Source: Tepidicella baoligensis
GTDB lineage: Bacteria; Pseudomonadota; Gammaproteobacteria; Burkholderiales; Burkholderiaceae_C
NCBI RefSeq assembly: GCF_013432195.1
Contig: NZ_JACCDB010000008.1
Location: forward strand, 1 to 64,000
Length of the DNA: 64,000 bases
Direction: 5' to 3'
The notes under the pieces were generated by a model. That model saw only the letters and a list, made by a program, of their open reading frames with translations, was not told the DNA's origin and did no database searches. Positions 1 to 6,952 of the stretch are shown piece by piece (within the stretch, counting starts at the first letter, position 1; each line of letters starts with the position of its first letter). The translations under genes and the position numbers were made by a program.

Positions 1-126
1 GGGGTAAGTGTCGAACTCGGGTGCATGGGTCTGTTCGATGTTGAAGTGCCAGAGACGAAGGGTACCGCGCGGAACTTTCCTGATGCGAAGCGTACAGGGG
101 ATGCTGAGTTGACCACCTTCAAGCCC
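1..126 (-). pseudogene. 3' part of IS-interrupted cassette gene (PD-(D/E)XK-like)
   Basis: If the IS element and one copy of the 8-bp duplication are removed, the minus-strand reading frame of the gene at 1517-2213 continues through this stretch to position 1 without a stop (about 40 codons). The joined peptide reads ...ELRVGLKVVNSASPVRF... and carries on beyond the window. This is therefore the displaced C-terminal portion of the nuclease-like cassette gene. Its true end and any following attC site lie outside the window. Confidence 0.75.
119..126. repeat. Left target-site duplication of the IS256-family element
   Basis: TCAAGCCC lies immediately before the left inverted repeat and is repeated exactly at 1517-1524 after the right inverted repeat. 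An 8-bp duplication is what IS256-family transposases make. Confidence 0.9.
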
Positions 127-1516
127 GAGCCTGTCAGGAATTTTGTGTTTGAGGCATAACCTGACGACAAGGAGCATCTATGCCAAGCAAGAAGAAGCCG
201 GCGGCTGCCGGCACGACGGAGTTGCCGTCAATTCCCCAAGAACTCATTGAGCAATTGACCGGCGGCGTCACGCCGATGACGGCAGAGCAGATCAACGCCA
301 CGACCATGGCGCTGAAGAAAGCGCTGATCGAACGCGCGCTGGGCGCGGAGCTGTCTCACCACCTGGGCTATGCACCCGGCAGTGCCCGCCCGCAAGAAGC
401 CGCCAACCAGCGCAACGGCAAGTCCGCCAAGACGGTGCTGACCGAAGACGGGCCGCTGCGCATCGAGGTGCCACGCGACCGTGCAGGCTCCTTCGAGCCC
501 ATCCTGATCCCCAAGCACGAGCGGCGCTTCACCGGCTTTGACGACAAGATCGTGGCCATGTACGCGCGCGGTATGACCGTGCGCGAGATCCAGGGCTTTC
601 TGGCCGAGCAGTACGGCACCGAGGTCAGCCCCGAGTTCATCAACTCGGTTACTGACGCCGTGATGGCCGAGGTCACCGCCTGGCAGGGGCGGCCGCTGGA
701 GCCGATGTATCCGGTGGTGTTCTTCGACGCGCTGCGAGTGAAGATACGCGAGGACGCGGTGGTGCGCAACAAGGCCATCTACCTGGCGCTGGGCGTGCTG
801 CCGGACGGCACGCGCGACATCCTGGGCCTGTGGATCGAGAACACCGAGGGGGCCAAGTTCTGAATGAAGGTCTTCAATGACCTCAAGACGCGTGGCGTGG
901 CCGACATCCTGATCGCCGTCACCGACGGCCTCAAGGGCATTCCCGAGGCGCTGGCGGCGGTGTTCCCGGCCACCACGCTGCAGACCTGCATCGTGCATCT
1001 GATCCGCAACAGCTTGGACTATGCGAGCTGGAAGGATCGCAAGGCGCTGGCAGCGGCCTTGAAGCCGATCTACACGGCACCCAGTGCAGAAGCGGCAGCG
1101 GCCGAGCTCGATGCCCTGGAGGCAGGCCCCTGGGGGCAGAAGTTCCCCACCGTTGTAGCGACCTGGCGCCGGGCCTGGGACCGCGTGATTCCGTTCTTTG
1201 CCTTCAGTCTGGCGGTGCGCCGCGTGATCTACACCACCAACGCCATTGAGAGCCTGCACAGCCGGCTACGCAAGATCATCAAGACGCGAGGGCACTTCCC
1301 CAGCGATGAGGCGGCGACCAAGCTGCTGTGGCTGGCACTGCGCAACATCACCGCCGATTGGGGCCGTGCGGCAAGAGAATGGAAGGAGGCAATGAACCAG
1401 TTCGCCATTGCCTACGGGGAACGTTTCACACGACCTGCCGCGTAATATGCGGCCTGAGCCCAGTTCAATGGACCGGGCTTACACGGAGCCTTGAACACAA
1501 AAATTCAGATAGCCCC
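127..1516 (+). mobile_element. IS256-family insertion sequence, 1390 bp
   Basis: The element is bounded by imperfect terminal inverted repeats of about 28 bp: left 127-154 and right about 1489-1516, matching at about 20 of 28 positions, including the shared TTTTGTGTT core. It is flanked by a perfect 8-bp duplication TCAAGCCC. It carries one transposase gene on the plus strand, interrupted by a stop codon. It sits inside an integron cassette gene that is read on the opposite strand. The intact ends and duplication point to a fairly recent insertion. Confidence 0.92.
180..1445 (+). pseudogene. IS256-family (mutator-type) transposase with in-frame TGA
   Basis: The two halves (180-863 and 864-1445) are in the same frame and together give a 421-codon IS256-type DDE transposase of normal length. 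The first catalytic Asp is in VVFFDALRVKIRE, before the stop. The second Asp (ITDGLKG-type, here AVTDGLKG) and the Glu (TTNAIESLH) lie after it. Codon 228 is TGA where the family has Trp in the pattern EGAKFW-M/L-K, so a single TGG-to-TGA change explains the break. An ATG follows directly (TGAATG), so re-initiation could make a C-terminal fragment, but neither half has a full DDE triad. Start chosen: ATG at 180 after an AAGGAG motif. The protein is probably inactive unless the TGA is suppressed or is a sequencing error. Confidence 0.9.
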
Positions 1517-1524
1517 TCAAGCCC
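1517..1524. repeat. Right target-site duplication of the IS256-family element
   Basis: This second copy of TCAAGCCC directly follows the right terminal inverted repeat and is identical to 119-126. Confidence 0.9.
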
Positions 1525-2213
1525 ACGCGCAACTCGGAAAATTGGCCAGACTTTCCCGCGTCCTTAAAACGCCAGAGTCCGTTCGGATGCGAATAGCTAA
1601 ACCAAAAGTCGTGTTGTTGATCGGACGCAATATTCTTTCGCAGAACGTCTCGCACGTCTTGTCTGTCCAGAATTGAACGGACGAACTGATCGATTGTCAT
1701 CGGCCCATTCACGGCAGGGAAAGTAGCTGACCGAGGTATCGGAATCTGCTCACGATCTCCGTTGTCCAGTTGCAGAACGCCGGAGACATTAAAGTCGATA
1801 GTCATCACTTCAAAAACGCCCGATGTCTCCAGTGCTGCGATAAGCGGCCAATCCGCTTCAGTGGCTTCTTCTAGGGTAAGAACCTCTATCCCATAGAAGT
1901 CGGCCTTTCGTCGTGCGGGCTCGTAAAAGCCGTTTTCTGATACGAGGATTAACTTGTCGGTTGGCAGATTCTCATGCTTCGCACGCATCTTCTCGACCCA
2001 CGGGGTGTCAGCCGGTCGTGCCCAAGAGATCACCTCAACTCCAAGCTGTACACTGTAGCCCCCAGCTATCGCTACGACCAAGACGTCCACTTCGCGCAGT
2101 TCACCGTTCACGCGATCCGCGAGCATTGCGGACTCCGTCACCTGCGCACGCCCAGCGAGCGTAGCCGTCAGGAGGGTGACTAGGCGCTGAAAGGCGTTGG
2201 TACGTTTCGGCAT
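1517..2213 (-). pseudogene. Integron cassette gene: PD-(D/E)XK nuclease-like protein, interrupted by IS
   Basis: The ORF starts at an ATG at 2213 (MPKRTNAFQRLVTLL) and would run into the IS, ending in a chimeric tail at 1479. The native 3' end is at 1-126. The N-terminal 120 residues resemble restriction-endonuclease-like proteins often carried in integrons. They contain a VTES...EREVDVLVV-type acidic strand, a GVEVISW strand, a WVEKMRAKHENLPTDKLILVS segment and a later YGIEVLTLEEA strand. The canonical Lys of the ExK motif is not obvious, so catalytic activity is uncertain. The gene follows the attC at 2224-2283, which makes it the fourth cassette from attI. It is less GC-rich than core genes. 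The specific role (defence or otherwise) is inference. Confidence 0.7.
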
Positions 2214-2223
2214 GGATTGAAAG

Positions 2224-2283
2224 GTCTAACGCCTGAATTAAGCCGCGTTGCGCAGCGGCGTCGGCTTGAATGAATTGTTAGGT
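2224..2283 (-). other. attC site (60 bp) between HEPN-like and nuclease-like cassettes
   Basis: On the plus strand it begins with GTCTAAC (2224-2230) and ends with GTTAGGT (2277-2283), matching the RYYYAAC and GTTRRRY outer boxes. Between them are complementary inner arms around AAGCCGCG...GCGTCGGCTT. It overlaps the stop codon of the upstream cassette gene, as is common. Confidence 0.88.
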
Positions 2284-2712
2284 GCCAGCCGATACAAGAG
2301 CCTCACCTAAGTCGTTGAGTGCTTGCATTAGGTAGCTGGCTAGGCCTGCAATCGACTCCATTCTCGCAATGTACTCCGGAATTTGCTCATTACGCACAAG
2401 ATGAGGCGTGGCTTCTTGATCGAAATCATGTACAAGCCAGTTGCGCTCAGCTTGAAAAAATTTGACCTTTTCCCATAGGTCTTTTGGAAGTGGCGCGGTA
2501 CGCTCGATCGCTGATATGACAACACCCATCGGCTTTGAAATGTGCAAATTGAGCTGCGCATTGGCCGCTTCCACCGAGTCGCCAGCATGCACGCGAGAGT
2601 ATGTTGCCAAGTAGCCTGCCAGTGCATATTGAACTTTCTGGCCTAGCATGATTGCTAAGCCGATTCGCCCGCATAGCTTTTGGAATTCTTTCGGCTCCGG
2701 TGGTATGTCCAT
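2278..2712 (-). CDS. Integron cassette protein with HEPN-like RX4H motif
   Basis: A 144-aa predicted soluble, largely helical protein of unknown function. I chose the ATG at 2712 (MDIPPEPKEFQKLC) rather than the longer ORF start at 2796, because the longer version would be translated from the attC hairpin. The C-terminal half contains FFQAERNWLVHDFD. Its RNWLVH fits the RX4-6H signature of HEPN domains, many of which are RNases or toxins, so a HEPN-type fold is plausible but unproven. The gene is flanked by attC sites on both sides (2716-2833 upstream, 2224-2283 downstream), making it the third cassette. There is no partner antitoxin in the same cassette. Confidence 0.6.
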   Translation of the reverse strand: MDIPPEPKEFQKLCGRIGLAIMLGQKVQYALAGYLATYSRVHAGDSVEAANAQLNLHISKPMGVVISAIERTAPLPKDLWEKVKFFQAERNWLVHDFDQEATPHLVRNEQIPEYIARMESIAGLASYLMQALNDLGEALVSAGT

Positions 2713-2715
2713 GGC

Positions 2716-2833
2716 ACCTAACGCCCAAGGTAAGCGGCGCCGGAGCACCGAAGGTGCGTAGGGCACCAACACAGGCCATGAGAATGCCGAAGGCATGGCC
2801 TGTGTTGGCGTCCGCTTGACCGACCAGTTAGGC
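2716..2833 (-). other. attC site (118 bp) following the csaA-like cassette
   Basis: The plus strand starts with ACCTAAC (2716-2722) and ends with GTTAGGC (2827-2833). The inner part is a long imperfect palindrome: AAGCGG...CCGCTT arms and CACAGGCCAT...ATGGCCTGTG arms. This gives the folded structure expected of a large attC. Confidence 0.88.
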
Positions 2834-2857
2834 GCCGGATGCCGTTAAGCCGATGAT

Positions 2858-3196
2858 TCATAGTAAACGCGTACCTAGCGGCACTTCATGTTCAGGGATG
2901 CAGAGGGTGACTTCGCCATTGATGTTGTGAAAGCCCGTGACCAGACACTCGGACATGATGGGGCCGATTTGTTTGGGGGGGAAGTTCACCACAGCGACGA
3001 CGAGTTTGCCGACCAGAGACTCAGGTTGGTACAGCGCTGTGATTTGCGCGCTTGACTTGCGTACTCCGATCTCTGGCCCGAAGTCGATCTGCAACCTGTA
3101 GGCAGGCTTACGTGCTTCGGGAAATGGGTCGGCAGCAATGACTCGGCCAACGCGGAGTTCAACCTTTGCGAAGTCGTTCCATTCGATCTGTTGCAT
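2858..3196 (-). CDS. csaA: CsaA-like tRNA-binding-domain (OB-fold) protein, cassette gene
   Basis: A 112-aa protein matching the CsaA family over its whole length. It has the N-terminal F-x-K-V-x-x-R-V-G strand, DPFPEARKPAYRLQIDFG, the KSSAQIT motif, the VVNFPPKQIGPIMSE segment and a C-terminal PLGTRLL. Family members are small dimeric EMAP-II/tRNA-binding OB-fold proteins with reported chaperone-like and RNA-binding properties in the cytoplasm. It is the second cassette from attI, between attC 3213-3282 and attC 2716-2833. The start at 3196 gives the standard family N-terminus (MQQIEWNDF). A housekeeping-type chaperone as an integron cassette is somewhat unusual but not unknown. Confidence 0.85.
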   Translation of the reverse strand: MQQIEWNDFAKVELRVGRVIAADPFPEARKPAYRLQIDFGPEIGVRKSSAQITALYQPESLVGKLVVAVVNFPPKQIGPIMSECLVTGFHNINGEVTLCIPEHEVPLGTRLL

Positions 3197-3212
3197 TGCT
3201 TGTGCCCGAGGG

Positions 3213-3282
3213 GCCTAACGACCAAGCTCAGCCGGGGAAGGCCGCATCGCGGCCTGACATCGGCTGGAGCGCCGTGTTGGGC
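3213..3282 (-). other. attC site (70 bp) following the SMR cassette
   Basis: The plus strand begins with GCCTAAC (3213-3219) and ends with GTTGGGC (3276-3282). The inner arms AGCTCAGCCG...CGGCTGGAGC and GGCCGC...GCGGCC give a stem. It lies between the SMR gene stop at 3289 and the csaA-like start at 3196. Confidence 0.88.
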
Positions 3283-3288
3283 GTTTTG

Positions 3289-3621
3289 TTAATGGGAAAC
3301 AGACTTGGAGAATACATTAATAACAACAACTCCAGCCACGATAAGCAGTAAGCCGATGATTGCGGGAATATCCAGCGTTTGTCCGAAGATGAGCCATCCA
3401 ACCAAGGCTATCAGCGCAATACCTGCACCTGCCCAAATTGCATAAGCCACACCAACAGGAATAGTCCTGAGCGTGAGCGATAGAAAGAAAAAGGCTGCTC
3501 CGTATCCGGCGACAACGATCAGCGATGGCCACAATCGAGAAAATCCGTCCGATGCCTTTAGAGCAGAAGTCCCAACCACCTCGCTGATGATAGCGACTGA
3601 AAGAAAGATCCATTGCTGCAT
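3289..3621 (-). CDS. Small multidrug resistance (SMR/Qac-type) efflux protein, first cassette
   Basis: A 110-aa protein with four hydrophobic segments spanning nearly the whole sequence. The conserved membrane Glu14 is present in VAIISEVVGTSALKAS, followed by the GYGAAFFFLSLTLRTIPVGVAYAIWAG signature of QacE/EmrE-type SMR pumps. These form dimers in the inner membrane and exchange protons for quaternary ammonium or other cationic compounds; some relatives export guanidinium. Being directly next to attI (core 3650-3656), it is the most recently acquired or best expressed cassette. The exact substrate cannot be read from sequence. The start at 3621 is followed by the usual family N-terminus. 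Confidence 0.88.
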   Translation of the reverse strand: MQQWIFLSVAIISEVVGTSALKASDGFSRLWPSLIVVAGYGAAFFFLSLTLRTIPVGVAYAIWAGAGIALIALVGWLIFGQTLDIPAIIGLLLIVAGVVVINVFSKSVSH

Positions 3622-3649
3622 TCGTATTTCCTAAGCTCTGAAGTTCGAC

Positions 3650-3656
3650 GCCCAAC
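3650..3656 (-). other. attI recombination core
   Basis: On the minus strand this reads GTTGGGC, fitting GTTRRRY. It lies just upstream of the first cassette gene and next to the intI leader, which is where the attI crossover site should be. The full attI probably extends into 3657-3720. Confidence 0.75.
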
Positions 3657-3660
3657 GTCC

Positions 3661-3686
3661 AGTATACGCCGCAAACGGCGTATACT
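3661..3686. promoter_or_regulatory. Perfect 11-bp inverted repeat in attI/Pc region
   Basis: AGTATACGCCG, a 4-nt spacer CAAA, and CGGCGTATACT form a perfect hairpin five bases from the attI core. The TATACT ends could serve as -10 hexamers on either strand. On the minus strand ATGAGT lies 17 bp upstream of TATACT and could form a weak cassette promoter Pc. Function is inference. Confidence 0.5.
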
Positions 3687-3699
3687 CATTTAAAAGATT

Positions 3700-3714
3700 G
3701 GTGTATAATACACC
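3700..3714. promoter_or_regulatory. Palindrome over the predicted intI -10 box
   Basis: GGTGTATAATACACC is palindromic apart from its central base and contains TATAAT, a consensus -10 for intI transcription (start codon at 3760). A repressor such as LexA, which controls intI in several bacteria, would be expected to bind here. The sequence is not the E. coli LexA consensus, so the identity of the repressor is open. Confidence 0.5.
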
Positions 3715-3759
3715 TTTCTACCTCTAGCTTATGCATTTATCGCACCATTGTTTTGATAT

Positions 3760-4734
3760 ATGCAGGCAACCGCCCCGCCGCCAAAGCTGCTCGTTCAGTT
3801 GCGCGAAAAGATACGGCTCAAGCACTACAGCCTGTCCACCGAGCGGCAATATGTTCACTGGGTTCGGCGTTTCGTGCTTTTCCACGGCAAGCGCCACCCT
3901 GCGGACATGGGGGCGCCTGAAGTGGAGTCATTTCTAACACATCTGGCCGTGGAGGGCAATGTGTCCTCTTCCACGCAAAATCAGGCCTTGTCGGCGCTGC
4001 TGTTTCTGTACCGCGAGGTTCTGGGGTTGGATTTGCCATGGATGCAGGACGTGGTGCGCGCCAAGCGTTCAGTCCGTTTGCCCGTGGTTTTGACGCAGGC
4101 AGAGGTGGCCGCCGTACTGGAGCGCATGACGGGTCTGCATGGGCTGATGGCGCGGCTGCTCTACGGAACTGGCATGCGCCTGATGGAGGTGGTGCGCCTG
4201 CGCGTAAAGGATGTGGATTTTGAACGCCTGGAAATTGTGGTGCGTGATGGCAAGGGCGCTAAAGACCGCGTGACCATGCTGCCGCGAAAGCTGGCGGCAC
4301 CGCTGCAAGAGCATTTGGTTTGGCGCCGCCGCCTATTTGAAGACGACACTGCCCAAGGCATGGCGGGCGTGTATTTGCCTGACGCCTTGGAGTGCAAATA
4401 CCCCAACGCCCCATATGCATGGGGCTGGCAGTATGTGTTTGTGGCAGAAAGCTATTCGCTGGACCCGCGCAGCGGCGCCCTGCGGCGCCACCACACAGAC
4501 GAAAAAGCCCTCCAACGTGCCATGAAGAAAGCGGTGCAGGCGGCCAACATTGCCAAGCCCGCCACCCCGCACACGCTGCGCCACAGCTTTGCCACCCATT
4601 TGCTGCAAAGCGGTTACGACATTCGAACCATTCAAGAACTGCTGGGCCACGCCGACGTGGCCACCACCATGATCTACACCCACGTGCTCAACCAGGGCGG
4701 CAAAGGTGTGGCCAGCCCATTGGACGCCTTGTGA
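3760..4734 (+). CDS. intI: Integron integrase (IntI, tyrosine recombinase)
   Basis: A 324-aa tyrosine recombinase with an N-terminal SAM-like core-binding domain (about residues 8-95) and a catalytic domain. The active-site set is visible: R140 (GTGMRLMEV), H271 and R274 (PHTLRHSF), H297 (LLGHADV) and nucleophile Y306 (TTMIYTHV). The extra segment [19 protein letters not shown] at about residues 209-227 is the patch that distinguishes IntI from XerC/XerD and lets it handle folded attC sites. The gene is divergent from the cassette array. Its TGA overlaps the GTG start of the next gene. The ORF is intact, so the integron is probably functional. Confidence 0.95.
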
Positions 4735-5525
4735 AGAGCTCCCCCGCCCAAGCCCTGCTGCTGGCCGCAGGCCGTGGCGAGCGCATGCGCCCGCTCACCG
4801 ACACCACCCCCAAACCCCTGCTGGCCGTGCAGGGCAAGCCGCTCATGCAGTGGCACCTGGAAGCCCTGGCCCGTGGCGGGGTGCGCAGCGTGTGCATCAA
4901 CACCGCGTGGCTGGGCGAGCAGATTGCCGAACGCTTTGGCCCCGCCTTCACCCCCGATGCAACCGCGTGGGACGGCTCCGGCCAGGCGCCCACCCTGGCC
5001 CTGCAATACTCCATGGAAGGGCAGGACTTTGGCCGCGCGCTGGAAACCGCTGGCGGCATGGTGCGTGCATTGCCCCTGCTGGACGAGGTGTTCTGGCTGC
5101 TGGCGGGCGATGTGTTTGCGCCCGAATTCGTGTTCTCTGACGCGGTGCGGGCCGCGTTTGCGCGCAGTTCCTTGTTGGCGCACATCTGGCTGGTGCCCAA
5201 CCCTGAGCACAACCCCAAGGGGGACTTTGGCGTCGCCGTGCTCCCCGGGGGCCGCCTGATGGCCCACAACGGCGCCGATGTGCCACGGCACACTTACTCC
5301 ACCATAGGCCTGTACAAGAAAGCGTTCTTTGCACAACCTTGGTGCGCCATACCGCCGGGCAACCCGCAAGGGGTTTGCGCCCCGCTGGCGCCCATGCTGC
5401 GTGCCGCCATCGACGCGGGGCTGGTGGGTGCGTCGGTCTACCCCGACCGCTGGGTGGACGTCGGCACGCCCGAGCGGCTGGCCGCCCTCAACGCCGCAGG
5501 GCCGACCGGCGCGGCGCTGCACTGA
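4731..5525 (+). CDS. murU: N-acetylmuramate alpha-1-phosphate uridylyltransferase-like nucleotidyltransferase
   Basis: A 264-aa nucleotidyltransferase of the MurU type. The N-terminal [24 protein letters not shown] motif binds the nucleotide, LLAGDVFAP holds the metal-binding Asp, and [10 protein letters not shown] closes the domain. MurU makes UDP-MurNAc from MurNAc-1-phosphate in cytoplasmic cell-wall recycling. A more generic sugar-phosphate nucleotidyltransferase is possible. The start is GTG at 4731, overlapping the intI stop (GTGA). No earlier start fits the family N-terminus, and no strong Shine-Dalgarno sequence is visible. The usual partner kinase (amgK) is not seen next to it, perhaps because the integron sits at that position. 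Confidence 0.8.
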
Positions 5526-5554: not shown

Positions 5555-6952
5555 ATGACTGCCATCCCCCACCAGGCCATTTACGCAGCCCGCCGTGCCC
5601 GCCTCGCCGCCCAGCTGGGGCCCGGGGGCATCGCCATCGTCCCCACCGCGCCGGAACGCACCCGCAACCGCGACAGCGAATACCTGTTCCGCTTCGACAG
5701 CTATTTCTACTACCTCACCGGCTTCACCGAGCCGCGCGCCTGGTTGATCCTCACCGCTGAAGGCCACGCCACGCTGTTCTGCCAGCCCAAGGACCTGGAG
5801 CGCGAGATCTGGGACGGCATTCGCCTGGGCCCCCAGGCTGCACCGGGCGCGCTGGGCGTGGATGAGGCCTATTCGGTGGACGAGCTGGACGCCCGCCTGC
5901 CCAAGTTGCTGGAAAACCGCGCCACCGTGTGGTACCCGTTCGCGGTGCATGCCGGGCTGGAAACCCGCGTGGACGGCTGGCTACAGAAAGTGCGTGCCCG
6001 GGTGCGCTACGGCGCGCTGTGCCCCGACGCGCTGCGCGACCTGTGCAGCCTGCTCGACGAGATGCGCCTGATCAAAGACGCGCACGAAATCGGCGTGATG
6101 AAACGCGCCGCGCAGATCAGCGCCCAAGCCCACATCCGCGCCATGCGCCGCAGCGCCGCCACCCTGCGCGCCGGACAGGATCTGCGCGAATACCATCTGG
6201 ACGCCGAGCTGCTGCACGAATTTCGCCAGCACGGCTCGCAGTACCCGGCTTACGGCAGCATCGTGGCCGCCGGTGCCAACGCCTGCGTGCTGCACTACCG
6301 CGCCGACGCGGCCCCCGTGCGTGACGGCGATTTGGTGCTGATCGACGCCGGCTGCGAACTGGACGGCTACGCCAGCGACATCACCCGCACCTTCCCCGCC
6401 AACGGCCGGTTCACCGGCCCGCAACGCGACCTGTACGACCTGGTACTGGCCAGCCAGGACGCGGCCGTGGCCGCCACCCAACCCGGCAACCGCTTCGTGG
6501 ACCCGCACGACGCTTGCGTGAAGGTGCTGGCCCAGGGCATGCTGGACCTGGGGCTGCTGAACAAGAACGACGTCGGCCACCTGGACGACGTGATCGAAAA
6601 GCGGCATTACTTCCGCTTCTACATGCACCGCACCGGACACTGGCTGGGGCTGGACGTGCATGACGTGGGCAGCTATGTAGAGCCCAGCGAGGTGGGTCAG
6701 TTGAGCGAGCGCCGCGACCCGTTGAGCGGTGAAATCATCAAGGACCGGCCCAGCCGCATCCTGCGCCCCGGCATGGTGCTGACCATCGAACCCGGCCTGT
6801 ACGTGAGCCCGGCCGAAGGCGTACCCGAGCATTTCTGGAACATCGGCATCCGCATCGAAGACGATGCGGTGGTGACCGAGACGGGCTGCGAACTGATCAC
6901 CCGCGGCGTGCCGGTGAAGGCCGACGAGATCGAGGCGGTGATGGGCGGCTGA
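5555..6952 (+). CDS. pepP: Xaa-Pro aminopeptidase
   Basis: A 465-aa M24-family metallopeptidase that removes N-terminal residues preceding proline. It has an N-terminal AMP-N domain (about 1-140, RNRDSEYLFRFDSYFYYLTGF) and a pita-bread catalytic domain. Metal ligands are visible as Asp in LIDAGCELDGYASDITRTF, His in HRTGHWLGLDVHD, Glu in LTIEPGLY and Glu in IRIEDD. It is 29 bp downstream of murU and probably co-transcribed. The start ATG at 5555 gives the standard N-terminus. Confidence 0.93.
   Translation: MTAIPHQAIYAARRARLAAQLGPGGIAIVPTAPERTRNRDSEYLFRFDSYFYYLTGFTEPRAWLILTAEGHATLFCQPKDLEREIWDGIRLGPQAAPGALGVDEAYSVDELDARLPKLLENRATVWYPFAVHAGLETRVDGWLQKVRARVRYGALCPDALRDLCSLLDEMRLIKDAHEIGVMKRAAQISAQAHIRAMRRSAATLRAGQDLREYHLDAELLHEFRQHGSQYPAYGSIVAAGANACVLHYRADAAPVRDGDLVLIDAGCELDGYASDITRTFPANGRFTGPQRDLYDLVLASQDAAVAATQPGNRFVDPHDACVKVLAQGMLDLGLLNKNDVGHLDDVIEKRHYFRFYMHRTGHWLGLDVHDVGSYVEPSEVGQLSERRDPLSGEIIKDRPSRILRPGMVLTIEPGLYVSPAEGVPEHFWNIGIRIEDDAVVTETGCELITRGVPVKADEIEAVMGG

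Follow-up and report, generated by a model that had tools for sequence, protein, structure and literature searches.

An integron beside murU

The window analysed here, a stretch of 64,000 nucleotides from Tepidicella baoligensis, carries an intact integrase gene, intI (324 aa; positions 3760-4734, plus strand), whose stop codon overlaps the start of murU (4731-5525, plus strand; NF045761 at 213.5 bits, below the cut-off of 250). pepP comes after murU on the same strand (5555-6952; matches to PF00557 and PF05195). The cassette genes lie opposite to intI, on the minus strand. Cassette 1 encodes an SMR-family small efflux transporter (3289-3621; PF00893, 114.4 bits), which is Qac-like yet below the Qac cut-off (NF033137, 147 bits vs. 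188) and is 75% identical to an SMR gene adjoining intI at a Propionivibrio locus (L080). Cassette 2 encodes a CsaA-like tRNA-binding protein of 112 aa (2858-3196), identified by the profiles NF007493 (197.6 bits, cut-off 160) and TIGR02222 (162.8 bits, cut-off 119.65). The product of cassette 3 (2278-2712, 144 aa) has no Pfam or NCBIfam match; among 398 other genomes searched within the order, 2 contain weak relatives, with attC matches at both loci. The 5′ part of the cassette 4 gene (1517-2213) has no Pfam match and is matched in 3 of the 398 other genomes.

The first-pass annotation had proposed three attC sites of 60, 118 and 70 bp, and had named their failure to score as attC as a result that would speak against an integron. 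A covariance model, R2, trained on 30 attC sites from other loci and none from the window, finds exactly these sites at the same lengths, all on the minus strand: 2224-2283 for cassette 3 (59.8 bits, E = 7.2e-12), 2716-2833 for cassette 2 (42.3 bits, E = 8.7e-08) and 3213-3282 for cassette 1 (52.3 bits, E = 4e-10). Three more R2 matches in the window score 15.8 bits or less. In a simple attC scan the same three sites rank first in the 64 kb. At a score of at least 8 the window gives 6 matches (each site counted on both strands) against a mean of 1.3 in block-shuffled windows, a control that gives little assurance at the level of the lowest-scoring site; the shuffled windows give none at 10 or above, and the reversed window none at 8. 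When the minus strand is folded as plain DNA, 5 of 200 shuffles fold as well as the site of cassette 1 and 0 of 200 as well as that of cassette 2, and folding of the cassette 3 site is not significant (56 of 200 shuffles equal or better). That last site has the top score in the covariance model. No Rfam family reached its gathering score in a scan of the window.

The array is interrupted by an IS256-family insertion sequence (127-1516, plus strand) with inverted ends, matches to Transposase_mut and transpos_IS256 in both halves, and a transposase frame broken by TGA at 861-863. It is flanked by an 8-bp target duplication, TCAAGCCC, at 119-126 and 1517-1524, and the listed plasmid IS256 matches begin at window positions 125-129. 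A further part of the cassette 4 gene lies on the far side of the element (1-126, minus strand) and runs off the contig start: a tblastn search with the homologous frame of another genome (G510, L230) gives 77% over 35 residues at window positions 125-21 (E = 5.9e-16). We considered whether the left flank could be an unrelated gene, and rejected this because the cassette 4 homologue matches both sides. Insertion of the element into cassette 4 has broken the distal array. Of the four cassettes first proposed, three are borne out with their attC sites; the fourth is split and lacks an attC within the window. The word "complete" in the description "complete sedentary-type integron" is too strong, because cassette 4 is broken. 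The suggestion that the array runs past the left edge is supported by the cassette 4 match at 21-125 on the minus strand and by a further attC on contig C23 close to tkt, a gene often located next to murU. C23 probably carries the continuation of the array and, to judge from synteny and orientation, would join the window contig (C46). The insertion sequence, the attI repeats and the overlap of intI with murU were absent from the first-pass annotation.

The integrase and its chromosomal position

The intI product scores 488.1 bits against the integron integrase model TIGR02249 (cut-off 265). Its residues R140, K165, H271, R274, H297 and Y306 correspond to R146, K171, H277, R280, H303 and Y312 of IntI1, and the IntI1 stretch preceding the second catalytic part, proposed earlier as an IntI-specific patch, aligns without gaps. 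Of 582 confirmed IntI loci the 80 best were available for comparison, and family-level searches covered a sample of 298-299 genomes from a larger group. In the IntI tree the window integrase falls in a mostly betaproteobacterial clade of 20 rows (SH-aLRT 98). The organism names of the named rows agree with the soil and freshwater betaproteobacterial clade that had been predicted, with some gammaproteobacteria inside it. The locus is not a class 1 integron, since IntI1 is about 60% identical to the window integrase and belongs to a separate IntI clade.

A reading in which a XerC/XerD-like recombinase merely lies beside chance inverted repeats is hardly credible. The catalytic residues are indeed common to tyrosine recombinases, but the XerD and XerC models give 149 bits where TIGR02249 gives 488, and all 109 of 109 IntI rows lie on one side of the tree with Xer outside (support 91), so that the clustering with XerC named in advance as a refutation was not seen. 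Three attC matches and an attI are also present. The profile scores, the covariance-model matches and the tree together refute this reading.

We then compared 69 murU regions besides that of the window (a murU match was found in 268 genomes, the window's own included). tkt lies upstream of murU and divergent from it in 40 of the 69. Remnants of intI end at the murU start in two (G002 and G044), one a sister species in which intI is internally deleted and the other a member of another genus, and the remaining 67 show no trace of intI. Because the remnants overlap the murU start in both a sister species and another genus, the junction appears to be an old one in this lineage that has decayed in two relatives, and this shared chromosomal position is that of a sedentary integron. 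Repeated insertion at one spot is a possible alternative, given the 67 regions that have no intI trace. The platform probably lies in the interval from tkt to murU, where the last codon of intI overlaps the first of murU.

The integrase is apparently functional, as judged from its intact frame, its catalytic residues and a dN (0.12) well below dS (1.64, near saturation) in comparison with the nearest IntI among the matches listed. It could be silent: a promoter scan gave no match to a full sigma-70 promoter in 3560-3860, for intI or for the cassette promoter Pc, and no LexA-type site was found within one mismatch near intI. A rather unlikely reading is that the integron is decaying, with an intact integrase no longer used and an array frozen and damaged by the insertion sequence, as in the sister species with its deleted intI. 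The insertion within cassette 4, the remnants in the two relatives and the missing LexA-type site would fit it, and a passage of PMC3108266 reports loss of LexA control alongside integrase inactivation in soil and freshwater integrons. However, an intact intI frame with its catalytic residues and a dN that is low relative to dS argues against decay, as do the high scores of the three attC sites. Moreover, a search of the sister species' array (L052) found homologues of none of the four window cassette genes, so arrays at this place have changed since the divergence of these species. Overall, the best explanation is very probably a sedentary chromosomal integron whose integrase appears functional, and the first-pass observation of an integron is confirmed and its interpretation supported.

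A palindromic attI

The attI next to intI has its core, or R box, GTTGGGC, at 3650-3656 on the minus strand. Adjoining the core on the same strand, DR2 (TATACGCC) and the inverted L (GGCGTATA) form a perfect 26-nt palindrome (3661-3686) with 11-bp arms and a 4-nt loop. DR1 (TATACACC; 3700-3707, minus strand) lies within a second palindrome (3700-3714), which also contains TATAAT on the intI strand. Similar elements recur at fixed spacing in the IntI clade: DR2 precedes L by exactly 14 bases in 17 of 20 clade rows vs. 0 of 84 other regions, DR1 precedes it by 35-38 bases in 15 of 20 vs. 13 of 84, and the L and core motif occurs with no more than 2 mismatches in 16 of 20 vs. 14 of 84, counts that are no independent test because the motif was drawn from many of the same sequences. 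Over all regions the motif is found at this threshold in 31 of 105, and in 0 of 2,100 mononucleotide shuffles. Judged by conserved sequence and spacing, the attI of the clade is attI1-like in layout (DR1-DR2-L-R), with DR1 and DR2 in direct orientation, then L as an inverted copy, then the core R. By analogy with attI1, DR1, DR2 and L would be bound by IntI. As established for the family, IntI would recombine the folded bottom strands of attC with attI at 3650-3707, and new cassettes would therefore enter beside the SMR gene.

Both sides of the palindrome have changed at 5 of the 11 pairs, with a covariation score that none of 500 shuffles equals; the number of further pair types is not above chance (212 of 500 shuffles reach it). 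Instead of serving IntI recognition, the palindrome might be a host-regulator operator for intI and the cassettes, or have arisen without selection when a quasi-palindrome was corrected by template switching. Three observations would suit such an origin: changes in DR2 are matched in L but need not be in DR1, the TATAAT facing intI also lies within a palindrome, and further pair types fall within the shuffles. But a search of three whole genomes of the genus, allowing at most 2 mismatches, finds the palindrome at just 4 places, each of them attI or attI-like, unlike a general operator (with a reversed control pattern there was 1 match in the sister species and none in the other two genomes), and its distance to the crossover core is fixed. 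We regard these origins as unlikely, though not negligibly so.

attI modules without a neighbouring integrase

Searching 298 family genomes with a pattern fitted to such sites, we found the attI module at 14 places, distributed over 12 genomes. At six of the 14 places the module stands without a nearby intI, and attC sites on the correct strand accompany it at 5 of the six. Among the 5 is one in the genome of the window itself: a second attI, beside radA on contig C12, has no intI and its own cassettes, with 0 mismatches to the 33-base pattern and attC behind it at 54.9 and 31.6 bits. A stricter pattern gave 0 matches in viral contigs. The C12 attI could be served in trans by the only IntI found in the genome.

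With intI divergent from its attC cassette array, the locus resembles the sedentary chromosomal integrons of soil and freshwater proteobacteria such as Nitrosomonas and Xanthomonas. A passage of PMC12444791 describes the Xanthomonas integron at ilvD as having an old fixed chromosomal position and frequent intI loss. Unlike those integrons, the window's lies beside murU with a stop/start overlap, and it has a DR1-DR2-L-R attI with a perfect palindrome and integrase-less attI copies elsewhere. attI1 likewise has two direct repeats with L and R (in passages of PMC4792948, PMC8946536 and PMC3053210), but its repeat sequence differs from that of the window, and where PMC3053210 touches on the matter attI is called non-palindromic. 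The same source notes that attI sequences vary considerably, and a passage of PMC4792948 says that knowledge of attI recognition is wanting. According to part of PMC8946536, the direct repeats of attI1 were perhaps acquired and Vibrio attIA has none; an Aeromonas chromosomal integron is also reported without them (PMC10609294, in part). Among the matches listed in the open-access literature searched, no description of a palindromic attI or of an integrase-less attI was found. What is new is the attI design and the integrase-less attI platforms; otherwise this is an ordinary integron.

The C12 locus and four other loci resemble CALIN in having attC without a nearby intI. These loci begin at a recognisable attI module, a feature that CALIN as defined in a passage of PMC12444791 need not have. 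We propose tentatively, at somewhat less than an even chance, that the attI modules of the clade are stable, heritable docking sites that take up cassettes without a neighbouring intI and are supplied in trans by an integrase encoded at another site in the genome (C46 serving C12), that some integrase-less attC clusters are anchored arrays with an unrecognised attI, and that the mirror-symmetric DR2-L is the recognition mark. The clade-wide motif in chromosomal integrons argues that the DR1-DR2-L-R layout is not special to mobile integrons. It also allows attI to be detected without intI, so that the feeding of integrase-less arrays in trans becomes testable. Some attC clusters occupy conserved places, as noted for Xanthomonas in part of PMC12444791, and the attI motif could help to explain this placement.

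Integrase, attC sites and cassettes

Against TIGR02249, the curated model for integron integrases, the 324-residue frame at 3760-4734 (+) scores 488.1 bits (the cut-off being 265), and the XerC and XerD models score it far lower. It shares about 60% identity with the plasmid-borne IntI1, and alignment with IntI1, whose residue numbering is that used in PMC3053210, places the catalytic positions at R140, K165, H271, R274, H297 and Y306. The first-pass annotation had proposed an intact intI with a full catalytic set, and both features are present. In the tree, the window integrase falls into a 20-row IntI clade (SH-aLRT 98) with Nitrosomonas, Thiobacillus, Sideroxydans, Rhodocyclaceae, further family members and a few gammaproteobacteria. 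It does not cluster with XerC, as three Xer-type rows are separate from all 109 IntI rows with a support of 91, in a quick tree with long Xer branches.

The three attC sites proposed earlier (60, 118 and 70 bp) were scored with a covariance model whose training alignment comprises 30 attC sites, all of other loci; the common structure of these 30 is paired in 92.7% of alignment cells, compared with 76.8% in shuffles. All three score as attC on the minus strand: 59.8 bits at 2224-2283, 42.3 bits at 2716-2833 and 52.3 bits at 3213-3282. The next-best match in the window, at 15.8 bits, is the opposite strand of the site at 2224-2283. Folding alone, without the alignment, backs only two of the three sites.

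The array holds four cassette genes, all on the minus strand and thus opposite to intI, as had been annotated. One encodes an SMR-family efflux protein (score below the Qac cut-off) and one a CsaA-like tRNA-binding protein by profile match; the other two, including the fourth, have no Pfam match. The count of four stands, but the fourth gene is broken by an IS256-family element at 127-1516; copies of its target duplication, TCAAGCCC, flank it at 119-126 and 1517-1524. A homologue in genome G510 matches both flanks of the element: residues 75-233 match one side at 74%, and 35 residues match the other at 77% (window 125-21, E 5.9e-16). The transposase frame (180-1445) is itself divided by an in-frame TGA at 861-863.

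The tkt-murU neighborhood

The window forms the beginning of contig C46. Three further attC sites were found in the whole genome at E ≤ 1 (150 of 2,724 candidates scored): two on contig C12 and one at 2476-2544 of contig C23, with a GFA-family gene and, beyond it, tkt coming next. In 40 of 69 murU regions of other genomes, murU has a divergently oriented tkt upstream, within the fetched stretch. The integron on C46 therefore probably has C23 as its left end; strand and order fit, and we infer the join from them. A different IS256-family copy is located near the C23 attC (L186 1118-2416).

In the sister species, G002, the intI-murU junction is the same; intI is shortened to 117 codons there, and an array lies between murU and a gene read from its sequence as MBL-fold. 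A YoeB/Phd-type toxin-antitoxin pair is found within this array (L052 1771-2288). In another genus (G044), intI survives as a 47-residue C-terminal remnant that terminates within the murU start; tkt lies on the opposite side. Upstream of murU, G192 has a single attC, a weak match at 21.2 bits, and no intI. No attC was detected at E 0.1 in the remaining 67 of 68 murU regions scanned, and 67 of the 69 murU regions from other genomes are free of intI traces at E 0.01. An old integron at murU, lost or broken in most lines, would explain this pattern by one insertion; alternatively, integrons may have inserted repeatedly at one spot beside murU. Given the overlap between the intI stop and the murU start, translation of murU may follow that of intI.

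attI layout in the integrase clade

Upstream of the clade's integrases, the arrangement of attI recurs. Towards the cassettes, it consists of the direct repeat DR1 TATACACC, a similar DR2, L, which is an inverted version of the repeat (GGTGTMTAC), and the core GTTRG. Of the 20 clade rows, 17 have DR2 exactly 14 bases ahead of L and 15 have DR1 35-38 bases ahead of it; the corresponding numbers among 84 rows outside the clade are 0 and 13. With up to two mismatches, the motif of L plus core occurs in 16 clade rows, 14 of the 84 remaining rows and the G002 copy, which is truncated (31/105), and in 0 of 2,100 shuffles.

DR2 and L form perfect 11-base arms in the window. Among 20 aligned attI sequences (clade members with readable attI, and G002), six keep all 11 pairs and three keep 10, and both-sided changes are seen at five pairs. 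The covariation score is equalled by 0 of 500 shuffles, although kinship can produce such scores, and the count of further pair types is not above that of shuffles (212/500). The symmetry may serve IntI binding, or it may arise from non-selective palindrome correction.

attI modules with and without an integrase gene

Within the three genus genomes searched, the palindrome alone is present four times with up to two mismatches: in the attI of G000 (the studied genome), in that of G002, on C12 of G000 and in G001. Its reversed control is present once, in G002. The fuller attI pattern, at the same tolerance, occurs at 14 places in 12 of 298 family genomes; read backwards, it occurs at none in these 298. 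Six places adjoin a full-length intI (G000:C46, G028, G235, G040:C94, G180 and G257) and two a broken or contig-split one (G002 and G154). The intI of G154 is spread over two contigs, the break falling at about codon 135 (L255 334-720, L256 317-886). In G257, 61-bp attC sites that are nearly identical occur in runs, and four of them are spaced about 241 bp apart (L170 4588-5370 and beyond), as though a single, very short cassette had undergone duplication.

The other six places have no nearby intI: G000:C12, adjoining radA; G040:C111; G136:C47 and G291:C45, of one genus and with near-identical flanks; and G059:C328 and G001:C1, of two genera, both flanked by a LysR-type gene and an aminotransferase gene (names read from sequence). 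Five of the six have correctly placed and oriented attC matches lying 0.5 to 2.6 kb from the core, the best per place scoring 39.9 to 54.9 bits; the G001 place, whose attI pattern has two mismatches, has no attC match. No intI remnant was found at E 0.01 in the fetched loci L251-L254, L187 and L236, with coverage limited to 1.7 kb on attI's far side in L253 and to 2.6 kb past the near side in L254. Integrase matches at E 1e-60 comprise one of class 1 type each in G136 and G291 and one of the clade each in G040 and G000, all on contigs other than that of the intI-less attI; among the matches listed there is none in G059 or G001.

The C12 module (2290-6475 of L187, which is G000:C12:235000-246000) has no mismatch to the pattern. 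After its attI come, in order, genes for a HEAT-repeat protein and a DNA methylase, an attC, an unknown gene, a second attC and a TIR-domain gene, and no intI was found at this locus. The genome thus has two attI sites with cassettes and one integrase found. The C46 integrase may serve the C12 attI as well, but the half-sites of the latter differ from those on C46 (TATGCACC vs. TATACGCC); the simpler explanation is that the site once had its own intI, since deleted.

Neither the attI design nor integrase-less attI modules were found described in the open-access literature, to which the comparison extends. As far as checked, the window integron belongs to a known type, and what is new would be its attI design and the occurrence of integrase-less attI modules with cassettes.
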